Part shown: piece after piece, positions 1-44,859 of the stretch
Layout of the letters: every line of letters begins with the position of its first letter
How positions within the stretch are numbered: position 1 is the first letter of the stretch
NCBI RefSeq assembly: GCF_000153765.1
Contig: NZ_DS022295.1
Coordinates: 959,008-1,023,007 of the forward strand
Direction of reading: 5' to 3'
From: Mariprofundus ferrooxydans PV-1
Lineage (GTDB): Bacteria; Pseudomonadota; Zetaproteobacteria; Mariprofundales; Mariprofundaceae
Length of the DNA stretch: 64,000 nt
Position numbers and translations under genes: made by a program
The notes under the pieces: model-generated
The model's database searches: none
The model's input: only the letters and a program-made list of their open reading frames with translations
Told to the model about the DNA's origin: nothing

Positions 1-584
1 GGCGCCGCGCGCTCACCGGGATCGACACCATACCCAAACCCACAATGGTGATTACCGTGCGTGAACTGCCCGAACCGTCAGTACAACAGGTGACCCACGG
101 TGCAACTGCGATTACACGGCCTGACATCCGTTGGAAGCGCTGTGACATCAAATCGATCGCCCTGCTGGCCAACGTCATGGGCAAGCAGGAGGCAGCCCAG
201 CTCGGAGCCGATGAATGCTTCTGGCAGGATGAGCGGGAATCGATACTGGAGGGGTGCAGCAGCAATGCGCTGGCTCTCATCAACGGCACGCTGGTAACCC
301 ATCCGCTGGATCATCAGGTGCTTGGCGGCATTGCTCGCAGTATGATCCTGCGTCTGGCAGCCGAGCATGACATTCCCGTGGAAGAGCGCGCCTGGCGGCT
401 GGATGAGAACGGACTCAGCGAATGTATGATGTGCAGTACCACGGATGCTGTCATGCCGGTCTGCCATATTAACGGGCACGCGGTTTGTGACGGCAAACCG
501 GGCCCTGTCAGCATGATGCTGCGACAAGCGATGCTGGATGAGTTTAATGCGCTAAGACAAACAAGGCAGGAGATAGCATCATGA
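1..584 (+). CDS. D-amino acid aminotransferase (class IV), 3' part
   Basis: Partial gene entering from the left edge; the reading frame is open from base 3. The protein matches the C-terminal half of PLP-dependent class IV aminotransferases of the D-alanine aminotransferase type. These interconvert D-Ala + 2-oxoglutarate and pyruvate + D-Glu in the cytoplasm. Diagnostic stretches are the glycine/serine-rich substrate segment (LEGCSSNALALINGTLVTHP), the following 'HQVLGGIARSMIL' helix and the late 'NGHAVCDGKPGPVSMML' motif. The usual '(T/S)SSTKEV' phosphate-binding stretch reads MCSTTDAV. The PLP lysine would lie upstream of the window. The stop overlaps the next ATG (ATGA), so it is translationally coupled to the HAD gene. 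A branched-chain or 4-amino-4-deoxychorismate relative cannot be excluded from the C-terminus alone. Confidence 0.8.
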   Translation, partial: RRALTGIDTIPKPTMVITVRELPEPSVQQVTHGATAITRPDIRWKRCDIKSIALLANVMGKQEAAQLGADECFWQDERESILEGCSSNALALINGTLVTHPLDHQVLGGIARSMILRLAAEHDIPVEERAWRLDENGLSECMMCSTTDAVMPVCHINGHAVCDGKPGPVSMMLRQAMLDEFNALRQTRQEIAS

Positions 585-8037: not shown

Positions 8038-8039
8038 AC

Positions 8040-8058
8040 CCCCTCACCTGAAGAGGGG
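8040..8058 (+). terminator. Hairpin just after queD
   Basis: CCCCTC, a seven-base loop and GAGGGG form a perfect 6-bp stem three bases past the queD stop. The following bases (CCTGCTTATT) are not a clear U-tract, so it may be a weak terminator or an mRNA-end stabiliser for the tgt-queD transcript. Confidence 0.45.
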
Positions 8059-8245
8059 CCTGCTTATTACAACTTACAGATAAAAAATGGTATCCGACGG
8101 GTCGCCAACCACAATCTGTGATCCCGATCATTTAGCCCCCCGCCCGTTTTGTCATAATGATTTAAGGAAGCTGTGTTTCCATGGCCCTTACGGTCGGAGA
8201 CCATTCCGGCGGCATTGAAACGATTCGACTTCTAACGGAGGCAGC

Positions 8246-8428
8246 ATGTACAAAAAATTATATACCGCCCTGGCGGTTCTGGTGATGGGCATGACAATGA
8301 GCGGCTGCGTTGAATTTTACGACCCGTTCGACTACGGATACCAGCGCAGCCATCAGCATAGTGATCGCGGCGACGACAGAAGTTATCGTAGCGAGAGCGG
8401 CGATCGTGAACATCATCACGACGACTGA
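8246..8428 (+). CDS. Small hypothetical lipoprotein
   Basis: A 60-residue protein with a textbook lipoprotein signal: basic MYKK start, hydrophobic LYTALAVLVMGM, lipobox MSGC with Cys at residue 21. The mature part is very short, acidic and rich in Ser/Arg/His/Asp (about residues 33-60, ending EHHHDD), with no fold that I recognise. The His/Asp-rich tail could bind metal; that is inference only. A strong ribosome site (GGAGG) lies six bases before the ATG, and the gene is closed by the bidirectional terminator at 8465-8493. It stands alone as a single transcription unit. Confidence 0.65.
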   Translation: MYKKLYTALAVLVMGMTMSGCVEFYDPFDYGYQRSHQHSDRGDDRSYRSESGDREHHHDD

Positions 8429-8464
8429 TCTTTTGACTCCGCCCGCTATTTCCGGGCAGGACAC

Positions 8465-8493: not shown

Positions 8494-8514
8494 TGTTATA
8501 GCATGCAGATGCTT

Positions 8515-8709
8515 TTAAACCTGACACTCAGCGCGATACATGCATGGGGTAACTGCGCAATTGGTGATGGTCTGAAAGCATGGAGAGTTGCCTTCCGCAA
8601 TCTGGATTGTATGAATCAGAGCAGCCTTGTTCAACTTGGCCGCACCTTTGATATTCAGATCAGAAGCCATTTCCAGCAGCTGTTTTTTGGTTACTTTTTT
8701 TGAGCTCAT
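8515..8709 (-). CDS. Small Rho_N/SAP-like protein with Cys-rich tail
   Basis: A 64-residue protein. Residues 6-38 (KKQLLEMASDLNIKGAAKLN and onward) match the helix-extension-helix fold of the Rho N-terminal/SAP-like nucleic acid-binding domain. The tail has four cysteines (C44, C51, C56, C62) in the pattern EGNxxCF...C....C.....C, seen in small proteins of this type and suggestive of a metal site. Role unknown; DNA or RNA binding is inferred from the domain. It ends at the shared terminator and is convergent with the lipoprotein gene. Confidence 0.7.
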   Translation of the reverse strand: MSSKKVTKKQLLEMASDLNIKGAAKLNKAALIHTIQIAEGNSPCFQTITNCAVTPCMYRAECQV

Positions 8710-8826
8710 TGAGTTATTCCACCTGATTTAGTTTGCACGCATGGTAACTGCATTGAAAGTATCGGCAAGTTATCCATACTCAGTGTAACATTTAAACACA
8801 CTAGTGCATCACCATGACAGAACGAG

Positions 8827-9726
8827 TCATGGCTTATGTAGTACCAGAATCGATCGGTTCCACTGCCCCTGCCTGAAGTTTCGTAGGTTGTTCATTCGGG
8901 ATAGAGTATCTTCAATGCTCTGGTAGAATCTATCCAGTTGACCTGAGGGAAGAATCTTCTGCAGGCCATGCTCAGAAAATCCCCGTAAAAACCCGGTGAT
9001 CCCCGTAGCTGTTTTCTCGCTGAGGCTCTGCTGAAACAGGTGTGCCTCCACGACACTGAAGCCTGCACTGTGAATACAATTAAAGAGATCTGTTTCATCA
9101 GGGTAATAGAGTGGAAACAACAATTCGCAAGCCACTCCGGATACACCGTATGCATGCAGCGTATCGTCTACGAGTTGCCACAGCTTATCCAGCTGTCCCT
9201 TGCGCCCGAATTGCAAAACAGCATAGCCGTTGGCTGCCGTCATTTGATGCAAATTCGACAATGATGCAGTCAACAACTGATTACCAATCGTGACAAAGCG
9301 ATTACCGAACTGCTCCCTTAACAGCCTAGGGGTATCTGCCAAAAGCTCTGCATGCTCATCCAGCACACTCGGGATCCAGTGCAGCCCTTCATTGGAAAAG
9401 ATCAGGTCGAACTGCTGCCCGCCACACAACGGCACATGGAAACTCTGTTGATACGTTCTACAGCCGGGCAGTTTTCTTGCAGTGCTCGCCAGCATGGCAG
9501 GATCGTGGTCAAGCGCAGACACTTCTATATGTATGCCATGGCTTTGCAATCGGTCAACAAGCTGCTTGGTCAGGGTCCCCGGCCCACAGGCAACATCAAT
9601 CAATCGCACCGTACGCGATGGTGCATGCGCAGCAAACAGACGCTCGGCTGTATCAATAAGCTCCCGCCCGATATCAAGTTGCGAATCAGACCACTCCGCA
9701 TAACGAGGAGACATAATGGAACTCAT
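8827..9726 (-). CDS. Class I SAM-dependent methyltransferase
   Basis: A 299-residue Rossmann-fold methyltransferase. Motif I is LIDVACGPGTLT (about residues 42-53), the acidic loop is VSALDHDPAML (about 70-80), and motif IV is FDLIFSNEGLHWI (about 105-117). The last resembles trans-aconitate/BioC-like methyltransferases. The C-terminal 130 residues lack a recognisable motif and are probably the substrate lid. Substrate unknown. It is the last gene of the minus-strand set MurL-MurD2-HEPN-D-glutamate cyclase-methyltransferase, starting 19 bases after the cyclase stop. There is no clear Shine-Dalgarno before either candidate ATG (9726 or 9714), so it may rely on coupling. Confidence 0.75.
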   Translation of the reverse strand: MSSIMSPRYAEWSDSQLDIGRELIDTAERLFAAHAPSRTVRLIDVACGPGTLTKQLVDRLQSHGIHIEVSALDHDPAMLASTARKLPGCRTYQQSFHVPLCGGQQFDLIFSNEGLHWIPSVLDEHAELLADTPRLLREQFGNRFVTIGNQLLTASLSNLHQMTAANGYAVLQFGRKGQLDKLWQLVDDTLHAYGVSGVACELLFPLYYPDETDLFNCIHSAGFSVVEAHLFQQSLSEKTATGITGFLRGFSEHGLQKILPSGQLDRFYQSIEDTLSRMNNLRNFRQGQWNRSILVLHKP

Positions 9727-9745
9727 ATGATTATACTACTCAATA

Positions 9746-10570
9746 CTATATCAGACTGGCAACAATGGATTGTTCCACTTCCGCATCAAACCCGTCTACC
9801 ACGCACTCAGGCAGTCCCGACATACCATTGACTGCCCCCATCCCGACAATCTTTGCCACAAATGCCTGCTGCTGCTCAGGTGTCGGTAGCAAACCAGACC
9901 GGGATGATGCTATTTCCAGCTCCCTGATCAGGCCATAAGCCCCCCAGTTTGATACGGTGGCGATCAACAACTCATCTACCGGCACGATACAGGGATCAAT
10001 ATCCAGGCCCTCATGAATCACTTCCACCAGGTTACCCATGCCGATTTCATTACCGCCATCACCAATCCCTACGCTATACGATTCACTTGCCAACAGCTCG
10101 AACACCTCGTCGACTTTTGCCGTGTGTGCACCAATATCTTTTCCCCGCATGTTTTTATACTTGCCATCGGCCGCACGACCACAACGCTCAATCGCAATAA
10201 TCACGGAAGGGTTCAGGCTATCCCGAATAGAGCGGGCAAATGCCTTGGAGTCCACATCCTCCCCCAGGGGCATATTAATCAGGCTTTCGTAGCCGACAGC
10301 GTTACACATCAGTGGAAACACAATAGGATCGACAAGCAGCGCAACTTCGTAACCTATCTTTTTGAGCGCATGATAAAGAAAAAATGCCCCCGGAGGTCCG
10401 TCTGTTTCAGCTGAGTTGGCAACAAAAAAGCCGGTTGTAATCAGGGCAACTTTTCTTTCATCGTCCACCAGCCTGTTAGCACAACGAACGTAAATATCCT
10501 CATCCACATAATCCTTGAGAATATCCATTCCCCTGCTTCCATGCTGCAACACTTTCTCTTTCGTATTCAC
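9746..10570 (-). CDS. D-glutamate cyclase-like protein (DUF4392)
   Basis: A 274-residue protein of the DUF4392 / D-glutamate cyclase family, related to the C-terminal domain of mammalian DGLUCY. That family dehydrates D-Glu to 5-oxo-D-proline. Family motifs are TGFFVANSAETDGPPGA (residues 46-62) and GDGGNEIGMGN (170-180). The latter is followed by the acidic metal-site region and 'VSNWGAYGLI'. The start is a GTG at 10570 with GGAGG five bases upstream. Its neighbours MurD2 and MurL build D-Glu onto the peptidoglycan precursor, so a role in clearing free D-Glu, for example from wall turnover, is a reasonable inference. Confidence 0.8.
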   Translation of the reverse strand: MNTKEKVLQHGSRGMDILKDYVDEDIYVRCANRLVDDERKVALITTGFFVANSAETDGPPGAFFLYHALKKIGYEVALLVDPIVFPLMCNAVGYESLINMPLGEDVDSKAFARSIRDSLNPSVIIAIERCGRAADGKYKNMRGKDIGAHTAKVDEVFELLASESYSVGIGDGGNEIGMGNLVEVIHEGLDIDPCIVPVDELLIATVSNWGAYGLIRELEIASSRSGLLPTPEQQQAFVAKIVGMGAVNGMSGLPECVVDGFDAEVEQSIVASLI

Positions 10571-10654
10571 AATGCCTCCGGAAATATTTCTATCAACTGG
10601 TACTTACGTCTTCCCCCAACCTGTTGCCAACACCAGCCAGGGAATACGGATGAT

Positions 10655-11902
10655 TTAAAAATAGTCGTCAAGATCGTCATGTTCCTGATCCGAAAATCCG
10701 GACCAGAACTCTATTGCAAGTTGCGCATCTGACTCGGATAGCCCAAAATCAGTCCGTTTGGACTCCACTGTATGCCTGAATTCCTCTGAAGCCAGATTTA
10801 CTTTACGCGTCAAATATTCCATCATGTCCTTTGCCACGCGCGCTGTCAGATGGGTCCCTGATGCAAACAGGTTATCATACATACTCCTGAGCGCAGAAAA
10901 CCCTCCCTTCCCTGCCACGTGCAAGTACACCTGATTACCTCCCTGTTTATCATGCGAGCCAAAAAGCCATGCGTGCCCGACAGAAGGATCTTTCTTGCTG
11001 TAGAGCAAAATCAGATTAATCAGTGGGATGCCATTCAGACTCGTTTCTACTGGTTTGTCAGGTATCTGCAGGTTCGAAACCTCAATGATGCTGATGCTGA
11101 CCTGTCCTTCGTTAATTTTATCATAGTATCTGGGAAACTGGGACAGCAGGACCCATAACGCTTTTTGCGTCCGCGACCTGCCACTACCTCCTGGCAGGCT
11201 GACAACCCGGCGCAGAGTAATCGTACCATTATTCACGGCACTAGCTATCGAAGACCAGTACTGCTGGATCGGTGCTGCTTGAGTTTGAAGACCAGGTATC
11301 ACATCCGAAAAATAAGTAACGTCAACAGAGTCTATATCTTCATCCTGAAGGACCTGATTGAGAGAATCATACAGTTGTACTTCACCCAACAACACTTCGG
11401 TAGCCAGCAATGTATCCAGGCTACTCTGCAGCCCTTTGCTTTTTTGCTCTCTGGAAAACTCAAACAAGGTAAATGCGTGCAAAAAGCTTGCTGTATAGTT
11501 CAGTGCAAAATCTGCTTCAGTTTTCTCCGCTTTATAATGATTGTGGACAGCATCATTTCTCAAACTCACCAGATGACTCAGCTTATCCAGCGCCAGTAAC
11601 TTGAACCTGTTTTCTATCACACCGCCCTGTTCACTGATATCATTCCATATCTTTTGCGCTGTAAACATGCCATACAGCTGCCCGAACCCCAGTTTCCGGT
11701 AAGACAAACCGGCATACTTCTCTTCCATGTAATGAATCAGGACCTTCTGCCTGGCCGGAGACATTTTTGGAAAGTAGGCTTCATAGAGATCCTTCAGGGC
11801 AGACTCAATCAACTCGCCGGCGTCGCGAATCACTCCCCGGAAATCATTAGCCGAAGCCTTATTACTCAAGGCTACGTATTCTTCGTTATAATCTCTACTC
11901 AT
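10655..11902 (-). CDS. Hypothetical protein with HEPN-type Rx4H motif
   Basis: A 415-residue protein not assignable to a named family by eye. The N-terminal ~150 residues are helical and contain SLRNDAVHNH, where R115-N-D-A-V-H120 matches the HEPN signature R(N/H/D)xxxH found in nucleotide-acting RNases and nucleotidyltransferase partners. Residues about 225-370 are a mixed alpha/beta domain with GHAWLFGSHDKQGGNQVYLH, and the tail is acidic (HDDLDDYF). It sits 42 bases after murD2 and 84 before the cyclase, same strand, with GGAAGGGA upstream of the ATG. An RNA-targeting or regulatory role is possible. HEPN folds without catalysis also exist. Confidence 0.55.
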   Translation of the reverse strand: MSRDYNEEYVALSNKASANDFRGVIRDAGELIESALKDLYEAYFPKMSPARQKVLIHYMEEKYAGLSYRKLGFGQLYGMFTAQKIWNDISEQGGVIENRFKLLALDKLSHLVSLRNDAVHNHYKAEKTEADFALNYTASFLHAFTLFEFSREQKSKGLQSSLDTLLATEVLLGEVQLYDSLNQVLQDEDIDSVDVTYFSDVIPGLQTQAAPIQQYWSSIASAVNNGTITLRRVVSLPGGSGRSRTQKALWVLLSQFPRYYDKINEGQVSISIIEVSNLQIPDKPVETSLNGIPLINLILLYSKKDPSVGHAWLFGSHDKQGGNQVYLHVAGKGGFSALRSMYDNLFASGTHLTARVAKDMMEYLTRKVNLASEEFRHTVESKRTDFGLSESDAQLAIEFWSGFSDQEHDDLDDYF

Positions 11903-11944
11903 GACCCCGTCCCTTCCAGTGCAACTGGCTTTATTTAAGCTGTA

Positions 11945-13327
11945 TCATGCCAGACTCTTGATACACTCCCTGAAGTGCTCACCTCGCGCTGTATAATCCT
12001 TATATACGCCGAAGCTGGGGGCAGCCGGGCTTAGCAGGCATATGTAATTCTCGGCTGTATATTGCAGCGCCGTCTCTACAGCAGCAACCATATCGTTGAC
12101 CTCATGCATACAGACGGTAAACCCCGTGTTATTGAAGTATCGCTGCAGGATATCCCGCATGGCCGGGCCGTTCTGCGGCAAAAATATAAGATGCTGCACA
12201 CCATACAAGCGGATCATCGCAGCCAGGCGCTCGTAACGTTCGGTCGCAACAGGTCTGGCCTGCCCGCCCAGAATCAGTGTACCTACCGACGCCTCAAATG
12301 CACTCAGAGCCGCACAAGTCGTATCCGGCGTCGTCGAAATCGAATCGTTGATAAAGGTTACCCCCTGCACAACGGAGACATACTCCATACGGTCAGGCAA
12401 ACCGGTAAACCCCTTCAGGGCCTGCTCAATCACCGCCCTGTTCACAACAGCCATCCGGGAAGTCGCCAGTATTGCGGCCATGACATTATACATATTAAAC
12501 GCACCTAAAAGCTCACAACATGCATGGGGCACCTCGATATCTCCCCCATCCGTCTGTATATGGATACTTGATTCATCAAACCAAGCATCAAGCTGACAAT
12601 CATCATGTGAAAACTGCAACTTTTTAGCCAGTGCTGTCGTCGTCATTTCGCGGCATTCGGGGCTGTCAGCATTGAGTACCAGATAATCATCTGGCCCTTG
12701 ATAGCGGAAGACAGCAGTTTTGGCCTGATAATAGGCATCCAAACTACTGTAATAGTCGAGGTGCTCCGGAAAAAGATTCAGCAACACCGCCACATTCGGG
12801 CTACGTGTCACGGTAGTCAGCTGGTGACTGGAGAGTTCGCAAACGATCACATCCGCCTGCTCCAGTGCCTCCAGCTCATCAAATGCCGGCTTCCCGATAT
12901 TCCCAACCAGTACCGACGATTTGCCAGCAGCCTGCAACATACGGTGAATGATCGTGGATGTGGTACTCTTGCCTTTGGTACCGGTTACCGCGATCGTCTT
13001 CTCCGCACAAGCACACATCAATACATCAGCCTGACTGGTTATCCGTTGTGTTGCGATGAAACGACTGCTGATAGCTGCCAACGGCACACCTGGCGCTGCA
13101 AATACCACATCATAATCCGCTACCCGATCTAGGTAAGTCGACCCTACAAACAGGTTAACACTGTCGGGCACGCCATCAGCTATCGGGTTCGCATCTGCAA
13201 CAGCAATACACCCAGACTGGCCATCACGCAGCAGCGCCTTCAGTGTGCTCCGCCCTTCTCGGCCAAAACCCAATACCAATACACGCTTTCCGCGCGTCAA
13301 ACCCTCAAGGTAAAGCCGTACACTCAT
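11945..13327 (-). CDS. murD2: MurD2-type UDP-MurNAc-L-Ala:L-glutamate ligase
   Basis: A 460-residue Mur ligase. Residues 14-30 form a nucleotide-binding N-terminal domain (KRVLVLGFGREGRST). The ATP P-loop is GTKGKST (116-122). The middle domain has NLFPEHLDYY and the conserved 'AKTAVFRYQ' Lys region. The C-terminal ligand domain carries FINDSISTTPDT and LLSPAAPSFGVYKDYTARG. The order matches MurD. Because it overlaps murL by ATGA, it is called MurD2, which in Xanthomonas adds L-Glu rather than D-Glu to UDP-MurNAc-L-Ala. A normal MurD cannot be excluded from sequence alone; the assignment rests mainly on the MurL partner. Confidence 0.8.
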   Translation of the reverse strand: MSVRLYLEGLTRGKRVLVLGFGREGRSTLKALLRDGQSGCIAVADANPIADGVPDSVNLFVGSTYLDRVADYDVVFAAPGVPLAAISSRFIATQRITSQADVLMCACAEKTIAVTGTKGKSTTSTIIHRMLQAAGKSSVLVGNIGKPAFDELEALEQADVIVCELSSHQLTTVTRSPNVAVLLNLFPEHLDYYSSLDAYYQAKTAVFRYQGPDDYLVLNADSPECREMTTTALAKKLQFSHDDCQLDAWFDESSIHIQTDGGDIEVPHACCELLGAFNMYNVMAAILATSRMAVVNRAVIEQALKGFTGLPDRMEYVSVVQGVTFINDSISTTPDTTCAALSAFEASVGTLILGGQARPVATERYERLAAMIRLYGVQHLIFLPQNGPAMRDILQRYFNNTGFTVCMHEVNDMVAAVETALQYTAENYICLLSPAAPSFGVYKDYTARGEHFRECIKSLA

Positions 13328-14703
13328 TCTATAGCAGTCTGAAACAATGGCGGCACAAAATCATCCGCAGCTCTATCCAGGGAGCGCGACAGCTCAGCCG
13401 TATCCAGCCATTGCATTGACTGGCCATACTCGGCAAAGAAGCTAGCAACCAGCGCAGGCATGTCCACGCCATCCCGATCCCGAATGCTCAGCAAGGCACT
13501 TCTTATCTCCTCATAAGTACCAACACACTCCAGCGGCTTGTGTTCACCAAAGCCTGCCAGCAATGCGAGCAGCTCTGAGAGTTCAGTATCTGCCATGATA
13601 TCGCACCCAATAATGCGCTCCACCTGTTCTGCTGACAGGTAAACGGACAACATCACAGCAACAAACAGGCATTTGGGACAAGTCCCACACCAAGCATCAT
13701 CTCTGCCCGCCCGGTTACAGCTGACAAATGCAGCATGGTATTCAGGCATGTCGGCAAACAGTCGCGTGATTTTCATTTCGCCCATCGAACGCAGCAAGCT
13801 AAAATAATCAAATGCAGTACCCGAAATATGGTTTGCCACATAATCACGGAAATCTGCTTCAAACTCGAAGCTTTTCGAGTACTGATGATTCACATCCATC
13901 TGATGATACAAAATATTACCCTGATTCGCGCTCGCCTCATTGGAGAGTACAATACTACGAATGCCTAGCAGCGCAGCGCTTAATAGGCCAATGAAGGCAA
14001 TAGAAGCGGAAAACGGCACATGCCCGTTGAGATATCCTTGTTTATTCATCTCCAGCAAACGGGCATCCAAACGTCGTGCCACCCGTACAAAGTCCGTTTC
14101 GCTAACGCCACTGATACGTGCACATCGCTCTGCCGCTGCTATGGGGTTCACCATTAAAATATAGCGGTGCAGGCCGGGTACAAGCTGAGTCAGGTTCAGC
14201 GTCACTGCAGAATCCTTACCACCACCAACAGGTATCAACGCCCTGTGTGGATCACTGATAAAATCCACCGGCTGCATCTGGACTGCCGATGGTGAACAGG
14301 AGAAACGGCATGCACGAATTACATCAACATCAATGCCATTTACGAACATGTATTCACCCAGTCCGTTTAAATACAGTTTGTACCAGAATTGTACCTGATC
14401 AGAATTCAGTCGATATGGGTGAATCTCAATTCGCTCAGGGCAAGCCAGTTTGAAATAACTGATCAACTCAACCATGCCAAGATTAAATATCAGCAGCTCC
14501 AACTGCTCACCCTGCAGCCCCTCCCTCCTGATGGCGGCATTGTACAGACTCAATCTATGATCAAAGGCAATGCCCGGATCCAGTTCGAAGTGCCAGACAA
14601 TATGGCAAGCACCATCAACCAGTTCATAGTCATGGCTGAGGTAGCTGATTCGTGCATGCTGCTTACGCAACTGTATCAATCTCTTCATACCCTGCTTATT
14701 CAT
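13324..14703 (-). CDS. murL: MurL-type UDP-MurNAc-L-Ala-L-Glu epimerase
   Basis: A 459-residue protein matching the MurL glycopeptidyl-glutamate epimerase, which inverts the terminal L-Glu made by MurD2 to D-Glu using ATP. Seen in the sequence: a PP-loop-like motif VGGGKDSAVTLN (residues 159-170), LSNEASANQGN (253-263), and a cysteine cluster CGTCPKC (C339, C342, C345). The start ATG at 14703 follows GGGAGA; an alternative ATG lies five codons in. It heads the five-gene set and overlaps murD2 by four bases. Only 78 bases separate it from crcB with no visible terminator, so read-through from upstream is possible. Confidence 0.85.
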   Translation of the reverse strand: MNKQGMKRLIQLRKQHARISYLSHDYELVDGACHIVWHFELDPGIAFDHRLSLYNAAIRREGLQGEQLELLIFNLGMVELISYFKLACPERIEIHPYRLNSDQVQFWYKLYLNGLGEYMFVNGIDVDVIRACRFSCSPSAVQMQPVDFISDPHRALIPVGGGKDSAVTLNLTQLVPGLHRYILMVNPIAAAERCARISGVSETDFVRVARRLDARLLEMNKQGYLNGHVPFSASIAFIGLLSAALLGIRSIVLSNEASANQGNILYHQMDVNHQYSKSFEFEADFRDYVANHISGTAFDYFSLLRSMGEMKITRLFADMPEYHAAFVSCNRAGRDDAWCGTCPKCLFVAVMLSVYLSAEQVERIIGCDIMADTELSELLALLAGFGEHKPLECVGTYEEIRSALLSIRDRDGVDMPALVASFFAEYGQSMQWLDTAELSRSLDRAADDFVPPLFQTAIE

Positions 14704-14781: not shown

Positions 14782-15159
14782 TCACAGTGATCTGGCAAGC
14801 TGTACACCCAGCCAGGCAAGCGGCAGGCACACCAGCAGCTGGCCAGCGATATTACCGAATGCCATCTGAAAGGCACCCTCCTGCAGCAGACGTACGGATT
14901 CCAGTGAATAGGTGGAAAAGGTAGTAAAAGCACCGAGAAACCCGACAGTAATCGCCAGTCGCAGCAACTCACCGGCGGTAGATCGTTCAATTAACCAGAC
15001 GAACAGAAAACCCAGCAGAAACGAGCCCAGCGCATTAACAGCGAATGTACCCCATGGAAAAGCACCGCCGGCCACTCTCTGTATGGCCGATGCCATCAGC
15101 CAGCGGGCCACGGCACCGGCTGCACCGCCAATCGCTACGGCTGCGAGTTGCTGCATCAT
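14782..15159 (-). CDS. crcB: Fluoride channel CrcB/Fluc
   Basis: A 125-residue four-helix membrane protein of the Fluc family, which works as a dual-topology dimer exporting fluoride. Hallmarks are GGAAGAVARWLMA near the N-terminus (the Gly/Arg pattern), 'WGTFAVNALGSFLLGF' in helix 2 and the phenylalanine-box helix GFLGAFTTFSTYSLE. The length is typical. It overlaps the rarA stop by ATGA, so it is translationally coupled to rarA. No fluoride riboswitch is present, and none would be expected in mid-operon. Confidence 0.95.
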   Translation of the reverse strand: MMQQLAAVAIGGAAGAVARWLMASAIQRVAGGAFPWGTFAVNALGSFLLGFLFVWLIERSTAGELLRLAITVGFLGAFTTFSTYSLESVRLLQEGAFQMAFGNIAGQLLVCLPLAWLGVQLARSL

Positions 15160-16493
15160 ACAGACTCTCCCCCCTCTTCATCGTCAGGCTTGAGCTTGCC
15201 ATGACGCGCTGCTTTGAGCCAGTCAATGCGCTCACGCAGTGTGCGCTCGAATCCGCGCGCAACCGGCCGGTAAAGAGTCGGCCTGCCCAGCTCAGTGGGA
15301 AAATGGCGTTGATCCACCACCCCGTTCTCCTCATCGTGGGCATACCGGTAACCGGCACCATGGCCCAGCTGCTGCATCAGCCTGGTCGGCGCATTGCGCA
15401 GATGCATCGGCACTTCCGCCGCTCGCGTCAGGCCCGCCAGTTTCCTGGCCTCTTTTTCCGCCATATAGGCGGCATTACTCTTGGCGGAAAGAGCCAGATA
15501 AATCGCCGCCTCAAACAAGCCCTGTTCCCCCTCCGGCGAGCCGAGAATTTCAAACATGCGATGCGCATCCAGCGCGATGTTCAACGCCTTCGGATCAGCC
15601 AGGCCGATATCCTCTGTAGCCATGCGAATCAGACGACGAGCGATATACAATGGCTGCTCACCCGCCTCCAGCATACGCGCCAGCCAGTACACCGCTGCAT
15701 CCGGATCGGAGTCGCGAATACACTTGTGCAGAGCTGAAATCAGATCGTAATGTGCATCGCCATCGCGATCATAGCGGGCTGCGCGCCGCAGGCTCTGTTG
15801 TTGAACGGCCTGCAGTGACCAGCATCGTTCCGCATCGGCCTGAAAGAGCGACTCCAGCGCATTGAGCGCATAGCGGGCATCGCCATCACTATTTTCCGCC
15901 AACCAGACAAGCGCATCATCATCAAGGCTAAACGCTTTGGCCTGATCTCCCAGATAACGGCATGCGCGTTTCAGGATCACGGCCACGTCGCTGGCCTGTA
16001 AGGCTTGCAGTACAATGACACGGCAACGGGAGAGCAGCGCATTATTGAGCGAGAACGACGGGTTTTCAGTCGTTGCACCAACAAGCACCAGTGTGCCGTC
16101 CTCAATACAGGGCAGCAGCACATCCTGCTGTGCCTTGTTAAAGCGGTGAATCTCATCAAGAAACAACAGCCATGTCTGACCGGCTGAGCGGGCACGTTTT
16201 ACCACATCCTGTACTTCCGCCTTGCCGGCGGATACGGCCGAGAGCTGAACAAAGGGGATGCCGGCCGCATCGGCCATGACGGTAGCCAATGTCGTTTTTC
16301 CGACCCCCGGCGGCCCCCAGAATATGCAGGAGCAGCAGCGCCCTTCGCTCACCATGGTGGAGAACCAGGAGTCGGCTGCGGTGAGGTCAGGCTGACCGGC
16401 CACATCCTGCAATACAGCAGGTCGAATCCGGTAAGCCAGCGGGATGCTCACATCAGAGGCAATGTTATCGAGCAACGACGCCTGTTTGCTCAC
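15156..16493 (-). CDS. rarA: Replication-associated recombination protein RarA (MgsA)
   Basis: An AAA+ ATPase of the RarA/Mgs1/WRNIP1 family that acts at stalled replication forks. Motifs are Walker A GPPGVGKTT, Walker B LLFLDEIHRF, sensor GATTENPSF, the arginine-finger region LLSRCRV, and the C-terminal tetramerisation domain with VPMHLRNAPTRLM and GYRYAHDEE. The frame stays open far upstream into fadL. The start chosen is the GTG at 16493, with AAGGTG six bases before it, giving 445 residues (E. coli 447). The GTG at 16502 is the alternative. It lies 10 bases after the fadL stop and overlaps crcB. Confidence 0.93.
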   Translation of the reverse strand: MSKQASLLDNIASDVSIPLAYRIRPAVLQDVAGQPDLTAADSWFSTMVSEGRCCSCIFWGPPGVGKTTLATVMADAAGIPFVQLSAVSAGKAEVQDVVKRARSAGQTWLLFLDEIHRFNKAQQDVLLPCIEDGTLVLVGATTENPSFSLNNALLSRCRVIVLQALQASDVAVILKRACRYLGDQAKAFSLDDDALVWLAENSDGDARYALNALESLFQADAERCWSLQAVQQQSLRRAARYDRDGDAHYDLISALHKCIRDSDPDAAVYWLARMLEAGEQPLYIARRLIRMATEDIGLADPKALNIALDAHRMFEILGSPEGEQGLFEAAIYLALSAKSNAAYMAEKEARKLAGLTRAAEVPMHLRNAPTRLMQQLGHGAGYRYAHDEENGVVDQRHFPTELGRPTLYRPVARGFERTLRERIDWLKAARHGKLKPDDEEGGESV

Positions 16494-16503
16494 CGGCTGC
16501 ACC

Positions 16504-17613
16504 TTAATCGAATTGGTTGGAAACAGTGAAGACGATACTCTGCTTACGATCGCGGTAGTTACCGGCATAGGCACCGGTGGCGGTTTTACTACTGTAAAAC
16601 GTATATTGATAGGCCAGATCCATGTGCATGCCGAACATATCACCGCCGCCGCCCAGACTGACCCTGTGGCCATCCTGATCGGCAATCAGCGGATTATAAT
16701 TGCGACTCCGGTTTGCACCCTGATCATAGGCATAACCCAGACGGATCTGGGTATTCTCGCGCCACGTCCAGGTCAGGCCGGCCATAACCGTCAGCGTGTC
16801 GCGCAGATTCAGGCTGTTCGGCTGACTGACCACACCGGCCGTAACCACGTTCATGCTTTTCAGCACCGACCAGCGCGTCCACTTCACATCCGTCTCCAGA
16901 CGCCAGACATCGTTAAAATCATGGGCAAGCGCCAAGGTCGCCTGATCCGGCAACTTGAATGCCAGGCTGCTGGTTGACTTGCTCATGCTCACACTGGCAC
17001 CGGAGCGGTACACTGCTCCGATCGACCATGCCGGTAGCGGTTTCCACAGCAGAGAGGCATGGCCGCCAAAGCTGGCAATGTCAGTAGCCTTAAAGTTATT
17101 TGTCCCCTGCGACAACGTGGCCCGGGTAACATACCAGTCACCGCCCATACCGACAGCCAGATCGCTATTAATCGCATAGACCAGGTCGGCGGTCGTGTGA
17201 TCCACCGTCAGTTTACCCACACCGGAGGCCGTACCGAATGCATCACTCCAGTTGTTGTTGGCTGCATACATCGGTGAGAAGCCGATGCCGGCCGACAGCC
17301 GCCCGTCACGCGGTACCCAGGCGGCATACACCTGCCCGAATGTCGGCTCAGTTCCCGTATTGGAAGCAACACCACCCGGTATTTTTACCGAGGAGTTGCG
17401 ATAATTCAGATCAATGCCTGCACTGACAGACACACCGGACTGCCAGGCAATACCGGCCGGGTTATAGGCCAGCGCCGAAGCATCGCTGGCGGTAGCCGCA
17501 AAGGCATTGGAGACACCTGCTGCTGCGGCAGACTGATTCACCTGCTCGAAACCGCCGGCATGGGCCGATACGGCATACGAGAATGCGGCAATACATATAC
17601 AAATACGTTTCAT
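16504..17613 (-). CDS. OmpP1/FadL-family outer membrane protein
   Basis: A 369-residue outer-membrane beta-barrel of the FadL/OmpP1/TodX family, which imports long-chain fatty acids or other hydrophobic compounds. The start is the ATG at 17613, preceded by AAGGAAG; in-frame sequence further upstream runs back into lolA and is not used. The signal peptide is MKRICICIAAFSYAVSAHAGG, cleaved after AHA. The mature protein begins with the family's plug-like segment, 'GFEQVNQSAAAAGVSNAFAA' and then 'ASALAYNPAGIAW', and ends in an aromatic F-D, as barrels do. It is shorter than E. coli FadL (446). It lies between lolA and rarA in a tight minus-strand run. Confidence 0.88.
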   Translation of the reverse strand: MKRICICIAAFSYAVSAHAGGFEQVNQSAAAAGVSNAFAATASDASALAYNPAGIAWQSGVSVSAGIDLNYRNSSVKIPGGVASNTGTEPTFGQVYAAWVPRDGRLSAGIGFSPMYAANNNWSDAFGTASGVGKLTVDHTTADLVYAINSDLAVGMGGDWYVTRATLSQGTNNFKATDIASFGGHASLLWKPLPAWSIGAVYRSGASVSMSKSTSSLAFKLPDQATLALAHDFNDVWRLETDVKWTRWSVLKSMNVVTAGVVSQPNSLNLRDTLTVMAGLTWTWRENTQIRLGYAYDQGANRSRNYNPLIADQDGHRVSLGGGGDMFGMHMDLAYQYTFYSSKTATGAYAGNYRDRKQSIVFTVSNQFD

Positions 17614-33768: not shown

Positions 33769-34203
33769 ATGATTTGGAAATTAGCTCTAATTTTGTTCGC
33801 CATAGTGGGTATAAGCCACTTAATTTTTGGCATTGTATATGTCACTGCAAACGAATTTATGCCATATCATGCGCAAGCCTTAAATGTTAATTGGAATAGT
33901 CTTGATGAAAACTACAAAACTCTGTTCCTCGCCTTAATCAGGTTAGCAGGCGCCGGAGGACTAGTAGCTGGCCTCGTCAACGTAACCCTTGTAACTTATC
34001 TCTATCATCGCGTCGAATGTAGACTTATCTGGCTATTAATAGTATCAAGCTTAATTTTTCAATTTGTGACTAATTATGTCGTCTACTATGTGGTTACAAA
34101 TACACCCGGCGATCCTCCTCTACTGATGGTAAGTATAGGTTCAGTAATTATTATCATCGCAACCATATTTCTGTTTGCAGGTATACGAGGTAAGCATGCC
34201 TGA
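33769..34203 (+). CDS. Cassette-encoded hypothetical membrane protein
   Basis: A 144-residue protein with four predicted membrane helices: about 4-26, 52-78, 84-108 and 118-138. Its base composition is clearly more AT-rich than the core genes on either side. The ORF starts 20 bases after the attC-1 right core, and its stop falls within the left core of the next attC-like sequence. That is the arrangement of a single-gene integron cassette. No functional motif is recognised; the sequence is dominated by hydrophobic and aromatic residues. Confidence 0.65.
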   Translation: MIWKLALILFAIVGISHLIFGIVYVTANEFMPYHAQALNVNWNSLDENYKTLFLALIRLAGAGGLVAGLVNVTLVTYLYHRVECRLIWLLIVSSLIFQFVTNYVVYYVVTNTPGDPPLLMVSIGSVIIIIATIFLFAGIRGKHA

Positions 34204-35992: not shown

Positions 35993-36781
35993 ATGAAAAT
36001 AAGACACTTTCTTTACAATTCGTTTCTAATAGAAAGTGGTAAAAACAAAATTGCCATTGACCCGGGTCAAAATCTCTGGATTTTTAATCTAAGCAGCCTC
36101 ATTCCAGAAACAGAATGGAAAAGTATTACGCATATTCTGATAACCCATGGTGACCCAGACCATTACTGGCAAGCAGATCGGGTAGCCGAAGCCAGCAATG
36201 CACCCGTTGTATGTGGGAAAGAACTGGCTAAAGTTGAAAATGGCGAAACACTGCTGGTCGATCCTCGCGGTAGAGGTTTAACGTCCTGGATTCCATTTAA
36301 AGATGCACATCCATTAGATATTGGAGAGGCTGTCATTTTAGGCGATGTTAAAATTGAAGCAGTCAAAACCGTTCATGGTCCCATCAGTGTACCAATCCTA
36401 TGGTTCAGAATAAGGAAGCAACCAGGGCCAGGAGAACGTGTCGGCATCGGTTCTGTAGGCTTTAAAATCACATTAGATGGAAAAACGATTGTGAATCTGG
36501 GAGATTCTATTTTACAAACTGAATGGGCAGGTTTGAAACCGGATATATTGATGCTTCCGATTGGTGGACCAGGTGATAATGCGTGGACAATGGATGTATC
36601 CGATGCGCTTGAGGCAGTGAAACTCATAGCACCAAAAATGGTAATTCCTTGCCATTATAACGTTGCATTTTTCTGGATTAAAAATATCGCTTCAGCAGAT
36701 GATCAATTGTTCAAGCGTGAAGTAGAGAAGCTGGGTGTTGAATGCAGTATCATGCGGTATGGTGATGTGATTGAAATATAA
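35993..36781 (+). CDS. Metallo-beta-lactamase-fold hydrolase (UPF0173/UlaG-like)
   Basis: A 262-residue MBL-fold protein. The metal motif reads THGDPDH (residues 51-57), with Asp at the place of the second His of HxHxDH. Downstream ligand regions are TVHGP (about 124), NLGDSIL (about 165) and IPCHYN (about 223), the last being a normal His site. Such variants occur in UlaG-like and related hydrolases, so activity is still possible. The gene is AT-richer than the core genes. Its stop lies just left of attC-3, so it is the last ORF of a cassette. No clear Shine-Dalgarno. Confidence 0.75.
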   Translation: MKIRHFLYNSFLIESGKNKIAIDPGQNLWIFNLSSLIPETEWKSITHILITHGDPDHYWQADRVAEASNAPVVCGKELAKVENGETLLVDPRGRGLTSWIPFKDAHPLDIGEAVILGDVKIEAVKTVHGPISVPILWFRIRKQPGPGERVGIGSVGFKITLDGKTIVNLGDSILQTEWAGLKPDILMLPIGGPGDNAWTMDVSDALEAVKLIAPKMVIPCHYNVAFFWIKNIASADDQLFKREVEKLGVECSIMRYGDVIEI

Positions 36782-44784: not shown

Positions 44785-44859
44785 TGGTACTCCCAAGGGG
44801 AATCGAACCCCTGTTTCCGGCGTGAGAGGCCAGCGTCCTAACCGCTAGACGATGGGAGC
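44785..44859 (-). tRNA. tRNA-Glu (CTC)
   Basis: A 75-base cloverleaf with encoded CCA. Acceptor stem GCTCCCA/TGGGAGT, D-arm GTC/GAC, anticodon stem CTGGC/GCCGG with loop CTCTCAC (anticodon CTC at 44824-44826), T-arm AGGGG-TTCGATT-CCCCT. It begins 27 bases after the cheA-like stop on the same strand. Confidence 0.97.

Follow-up and report, generated by a model that had tools for sequence, protein, structure and literature searches.

The region of interest is a cassette of five genes in Mariprofundus ferrooxydans PV-1, two of which encode homologs of MurL and MurD2, in a stretch of 64,000 nucleotides of contig NZ_DS022295.1 (assembly GCF_000153765.1, positions 959,008 to 1,023,007 of the forward strand), hereafter called the window. 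d-Glutamate (d-Glu) supply is an essential and drug-targeted step of cell wall synthesis. All five open reading frames (ORFs) of the cassette lie on the minus strand; murL and murD2 overlap by 4 bases and are followed by gaps of 42, 84, and 19 bases to the genes of an HEPN-like protein, a DUF4392 protein, and a methyltransferase (Table 1), just as an original prediction made from the sequence alone had described them. The same prediction considered the set to be less GC-rich than the neighboring ftsK/rnj, and the mean GC content at third codon positions (GC3) is indeed 0.52 in the five cassette genes versus 0.60 in the remaining genes of the window (Mann-Whitney p = 0.003).

Table 1. Features of the cassette and its surroundings (positions in the window)
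Feature	Position	Strand	Basis or remark
MurL	13324..14703	-	NF041275 267 bits
MurD2, l-Glu-adding Mur ligase, 460 aa	11945..13327	-	TIGR01087 294 bits (cut-off 212)
HEPN-like orphan protein, 415 aa, RNDAVHNH at 115-122	10655..11902	-	PF18735 subthreshold
DUF4392, d-glutamate-cyclase-like, metal-dependent, 274 aa, GTG start	9746..10570	-	PF14336 220.6 bits
Class I S-adenosylmethionine (SAM)-dependent methyltransferase, 299 aa	8827..9726	-	PF13649 37.7 bits; DVACGPG motif
Replaced segment	8751..14781		corresponding interval of congener G009 carries murI alone
Small conserved SAP-like ORF, left flank	8501..8707	-	adjoins murI in 8/9 congeneric loci examined
crcB + rarA, right flank	14782..16685	-	adjoin murI in congeners G009 and G002
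Dat-like d-amino-acid transaminase, 3' two thirds	3..584	+	NF005209 152 bits, TIGR01121 137 bits on fragment

The original prediction proposed to look for murI and for a second murD in the genome. Neither murI (TIGR00067) nor any other Asp/Glu racemase of family PF01177 was matched in the host genome (2.99 Mb, 99.75% complete), and a second murD was found in the dcw cluster. By contrast with the host, murI was matched in 21 of 22 congeners, in one case only partially, and no congener searched has a MurL match. The rarA gene of the window is most similar to that of the congeners G009 (82% identity) and G002 (80%), in both of which murI adjoins crcB-rarA. The gene order in G009 is secD-secF-queD, a SAP-like gene, murI, crcB, and rarA, and it is the same in the window, with the five-gene cassette instead of murI. 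In a blastn comparison of the two, DNA homology of 77 to 79% ends at approximately position 8750 and restarts at approximately 14800, and the G009 interval between these points consists of murI only. Since the slot carries murI in these two nearest congeners and the cassette in a host that has no murI match, we conclude that an acquired murL-murD2 operon took over the ancestral murI position in place. The predicted acquisition of the set as a unit is well supported, the exact replacement of murI being an argument in addition to base composition. A remnant of murI in the window was considered and rejected, as tblastn with congeneric murI returned chance-level matches only. Outside the replaced segment, a stretch of approximately 400 bases (8038-8455) that separates queD from the SAP-like gene has no counterpart in G009 and contains a short plus-strand ORF with a lipoprotein-like look.

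Residues that distinguish MurD2 from MurD have been described previously: D182, K348, A414, and L416 of Escherichia coli MurD are replaced by E, R, P, and F in MurD2, the first two together switching the stereospecificity, and K319 is a further control point (PMC8788868). The MurD of the cassette has E197 and R358 at the positions of D182 and K348, P and F at those of A414 and L416, and I at that of K319, and thus matches Xanthomonas MurD2 at all five. The MurD encoded in the dcw cluster of the host carries D, K, A, and Q at the four positions and K at K319, and is, judged by the decisive residues, of the canonical d-Glu type. A survey of other MurL loci covered 80 of the at least 565 loci in GTDB and found MurD2 next to MurL in 74 of them; in 71 MurL-adjacent MurD sequences from GTDB genomes, the residue at K348 is always R (71/71) and that at K319 is never K.

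Against the MurL model NF041275, whose cut-off is 700 bits and which is named for Xanthomonadales, the cassette protein scores only 267 bits; the MurL of a proteobacterium of another family (G119) likewise stays below the cut-off with 435 bits. The cut-off appears to be tuned to one lineage, and the cassette protein is filed here as a MurL homolog of another clade. It has kept the motifs GGGKDS, NGH, NHQ, CxxCPKC, and HKPxECVG, which vary little or not at all among 33 MurLs, and these, together with the MurD2-type residues, give the originally predicted MurL/MurD2 identity good support. Its AlphaFold2 (AF2) model has a predicted local distance difference test (pLDDT) score of 92. Foldseek returned no match to this model below E = 0.001, and among the best matches (best E 4e-3) were the PP-loop enzymes TtuA, NadE, GMP synthase, and argininosuccinate synthetase, which together with the GGGKDS motif suggests an ATP-pyrophosphatase-like core, fitting the proposed adenylation. 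In a tree of 36 rows, the cassette MurL falls into a set (support 100/99) with MurLs of Bacillota, Bacteroidota, deltaproteobacteria, Campylobacterota, and the candidate phyla radiation (CPR), on a long branch and with the nearest row 36% identical. The MurLs of Xanthomonas and G119 fall into a separate set, and this separation of the cassette MurL from that of Xanthomonas suggests a distant donor of the operon. MurL was found in 3 of 120 relatives, including the host genome and no congener. MurL-like genes (~25-30% identical, long branch, no annotated murD neighbor) were also observed on two mobilizable Pseudonocardia plasmids (L062 and L063), and their products are perhaps another peptide epimerase.

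The system in Xanthomonas oryzae (XOO_1320/XOO_1319) likewise combines adjacent murL and murD2 genes, MurD2 residues, and MurL motifs with the lack of murI. The cassette differs from it in that its MurL is only ~30% identical to that of Xanthomonas and belongs to another clade, that the genome has kept a canonical MurD together with a Dat-like gene, that three extra genes follow downstream, and that it sits in the murI slot.

The DUF4392 protein matches PF14336 only. DGLUCY, which consists of DUF1445 and DUF4392, shares the DUF4392 domain, whereas here the domain stands alone and the DUF1445 half is not present; a mouse protein composed of these two domains acts as a d-glutamate cyclase (PMC5339696). 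The motifs ETD, IERCGRAADG, GDGGNE, and VDG of the cassette protein hold the six metal-binding acids known from TON_0340 (PMC5132392), a protein with the same single-domain architecture (Protein Data Bank (PDB) entries 4dwz/4fc5/5gl2-4), which differs in being archaeal and in having been reported as a weak phosphatase: its Mn-dependent activity was highest on AMP and very low (PMC5132392). No DUF4392 protein was found in 60 relatives searched, nor, at scores over the cut-off, in 42 MurL genomes, and neither the DUF4392 gene nor the HEPN-like or methyltransferase gene occurs near MurL in the 80 other MurL loci. A general DUF4392-MurL module was therefore rejected. In G119, the end of a DUF4392 gene (L212 17603-18496, 234.8 bits) is separated by 13 bases from MurL, which follows it (18510 onward). 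The DUF4392 proteins of the host and G119 share 34% identity and are placed apart in a small tree, and as the MurLs of the two genomes likewise fall into different clades, the two pairings look independent. This adjacency was found post hoc in n = 2 cases and is treated as a lead, with no statistic attached. We know of no MurL neighbor of TON_0340. The G119 pair as a whole spans L212 17603-19842, with MurL near the contig end and no MurD2 seen, and G078 of the same genus has murI.

Four DUF4392 genes on plasmids were also examined. The first has a putative hydro-lyase, PxpA, and a d-amino-acid aminotransferase as neighbors, the second an alanine racemase, the third an Asp/Glu racemase, and the fourth an amino-acid transporter, so that in three of the four cases the neighbors include a racemase, d-amino-acid aminotransferase, or 5-oxoprolinase. 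Because of these neighbors and the adjacency to MurL in G119, a role of the cassette protein in the removal of free d-Glu is plausible and is preferred here at modest confidence. The link between cyclase and bypass put forward in the original prediction holds insofar as the adjacency recurs and the plasmid contexts fit, but MurL systems do not usually include DUF4392.

The HEPN label of the third cassette gene is weak. The sequence RNDAVHNH fits the R-x4-6-H motif, but the match to PF18735 (E = 0.026 for the whole protein and 0.0037 for the N-terminal part) reaches at best 17.6 bits against a gathering cut-off of 28.4. The weak N-terminal likeness and the motif are shared with the RiboL-PSP-HEPN family (PF18735), whereas the C-terminal ~265 residues of the cassette protein have no Pfam match and no PSP or antitoxin gene is found as a neighbor; its single-sequence AF2 model is too poor for an assessment of the fold (pLDDT 36.5). 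No homolog was detected in 120 relatives, 398 Pseudomonadota, plasmids, phages, or viral contigs, nor in a GTDB pattern scan, which detects close relatives only. The methyltransferase is BioC/Tam-like at scores far under the equivalog cut-offs and has only distant matches on plasmids. The HEPN-like and methyltransferase genes were found beside MurL only in this genome, a result that the original prediction had itself named as refuting and that counts against it for these two genes. A regulatory or defensive role for them, as originally suggested, found no support, and they are probably co-acquired.

An origin of the cassette from a mobile element or phage was rejected, as there is no tRNA gene near it, no Rfam match, and no match of the MurL, HEPN-like, and cyclase proteins in viral contigs; the single tRNA gene of the window is at 44785. 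PADLOC gave no convincing defense-family match for any cassette protein, the methyltransferase showing generic methyltransferase similarity only. Elsewhere in the window, two ORFs (33769-34203 and 35993-36781) have GC3 values of 0.35 and 0.34, far under the rest, and were possibly also acquired.

Taken at its most probable, the locus reflects a murL-murD2 bypass that replaced murI, with DUF4392 acting, at lower confidence, on residual free d-Glu, and with the other two genes co-acquired. The swap itself, the absence of racemase matches, the MurD2-type residues, and the MurL motifs are observed, and the two reactions are assigned from homology to the characterized pathway (PMC8788868, PMC5808125). 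MurD2 would add l-Glu to the wall precursor, and MurL would adenylate the attached l-Glu and epimerize it to d-Glu, converting ATP to AMP, which is formed by the characterized MurL (PMC5808125). The precursor would thus be built without a pool of free d-Glu derived from a racemase. DUF4392 may convert free d-Glu, coming from the Dat-like transaminase or from wall turnover, to 5-oxo-d-proline, and such removal would shield the canonical MurD still present, along with other enzymes, from exposure to d-Glu.

Several points weigh against this interpretation. murI could hide in masked or missing sequence, which is unlikely at 99.75% completeness. The canonical d-Glu-type MurD of the dcw cluster has been kept, so that the host has two MurDs over the cut-off, and this is unusual: at E 1e-40, 40 of 42 other MurL genomes, many of which are incomplete metagenome-assembled genomes (MAGs), have at most one MurD (one in 39, none in 1), and two were found in the remaining 2 (G399/L066 and G408/L081). 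This retention is what one would predict if the exchange were recent or incomplete. A Dat-like transaminase is encoded as well, and the canonical route could still run. The best PDB matches of the Dat-like fragment are d-alanine aminotransferases, and truncation of its product at 179 aa was rejected, as the gene continues beyond the window edge. d-Glu can arise from Dat-type transaminases (PMC8788868), and the notion of a host devoid of any d-Glu source was rejected on finding this gene. Five family members (G025, G027, G028, G032, and G035) have no match to murI, PF01177 racemases, or MurL and carry three or four class IV aminotransferases, which makes a Dat-based d-Glu supply plausible in the family; the d-Glu source of these relatives may be Dat. 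Given the Dat-like gene and this plausible supply, we do not claim the absence of free d-Glu in the host. Four genomes of the same order (G073-G076) also lack matches to murI, PF01177 racemases, and, where searched, MurL, and have three or four class IV aminotransferases; Dat may be the d-Glu source in these genomes too.

It is accordingly conceivable, if clearly less probable, that the canonical route still builds the wall, with Dat making d-Glu from d-Ala and 2-oxoglutarate for the dcw MurD and with a redundant or conditional murL-murD2 inserted where murI had been lost. The presence of both genes and the tolerated loss of murI in the five family members speak for this, whereas the location of the cassette exactly at the murI spot, its intact ORFs with conserved active-site motifs, and the finding of a single MurD in most other MurL genomes speak for the bypass. 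As for DUF4392, it may instead have nothing to do with free d-Glu and be a metal-dependent phosphatase or a salvage enzyme, acting for example on the AMP released by MurL, as the AMP preference of TON_0340 (PMC5132392) and the formation of AMP by MurL (PMC5808125) would allow. We regard this as unlikely in view of the very low activity of TON_0340, the cyclase activity of the mouse protein (PMC5339696), and the racemase, Dat, and 5-oxoprolinase genes adjoining DUF4392 on plasmids.

A single functional module of all five genes, with the cyclase disposing of d-Glu and the route regulated or protected by the HEPN-like protein and methyltransferase, would agree with the common strand, the short gaps, the uniform composition, and the recurrence of the DUF4392-MurL adjacency in G119. 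It is nevertheless very improbable, as none of the three extra genes accompanies MurL in the 80 other loci, the 42 MurL genomes lack DUF4392 over the cut-off, and the HEPN-like protein has no relative anywhere searched. A more speculative extension of the replacement of murI by the bypass, to which we give little credence, is a transferable module that makes free d-Glu dispensable and also destroys it, in which MurD2-MurL takes over the insertion of d-Glu, murI is displaced, and DUF4392 drains d-Glu, starving the Dat-MurD route and thereby locking in the replacement. If this were true, the same principle would be seen a second time in the DUF4392-MurL pair of G119.

While the chemistry of the bypass is known, its setting is new: murI was displaced in place, the canonical MurD was retained along with a Dat-like gene, and DUF4392 is a recurring neighbor. 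A five-gene system acting as one unit is not supported outside the host genome. With murI present in nearly all congeners and MurL-MurD2 in the same slot of one species, the locus offers a before-and-after view of the exchange of an essential route. The recurrence of DUF4392 next to MurL suggests that the bypass is linked to the removal of free d-Glu, and this bears on the function of bacterial DUF4392 proteins.

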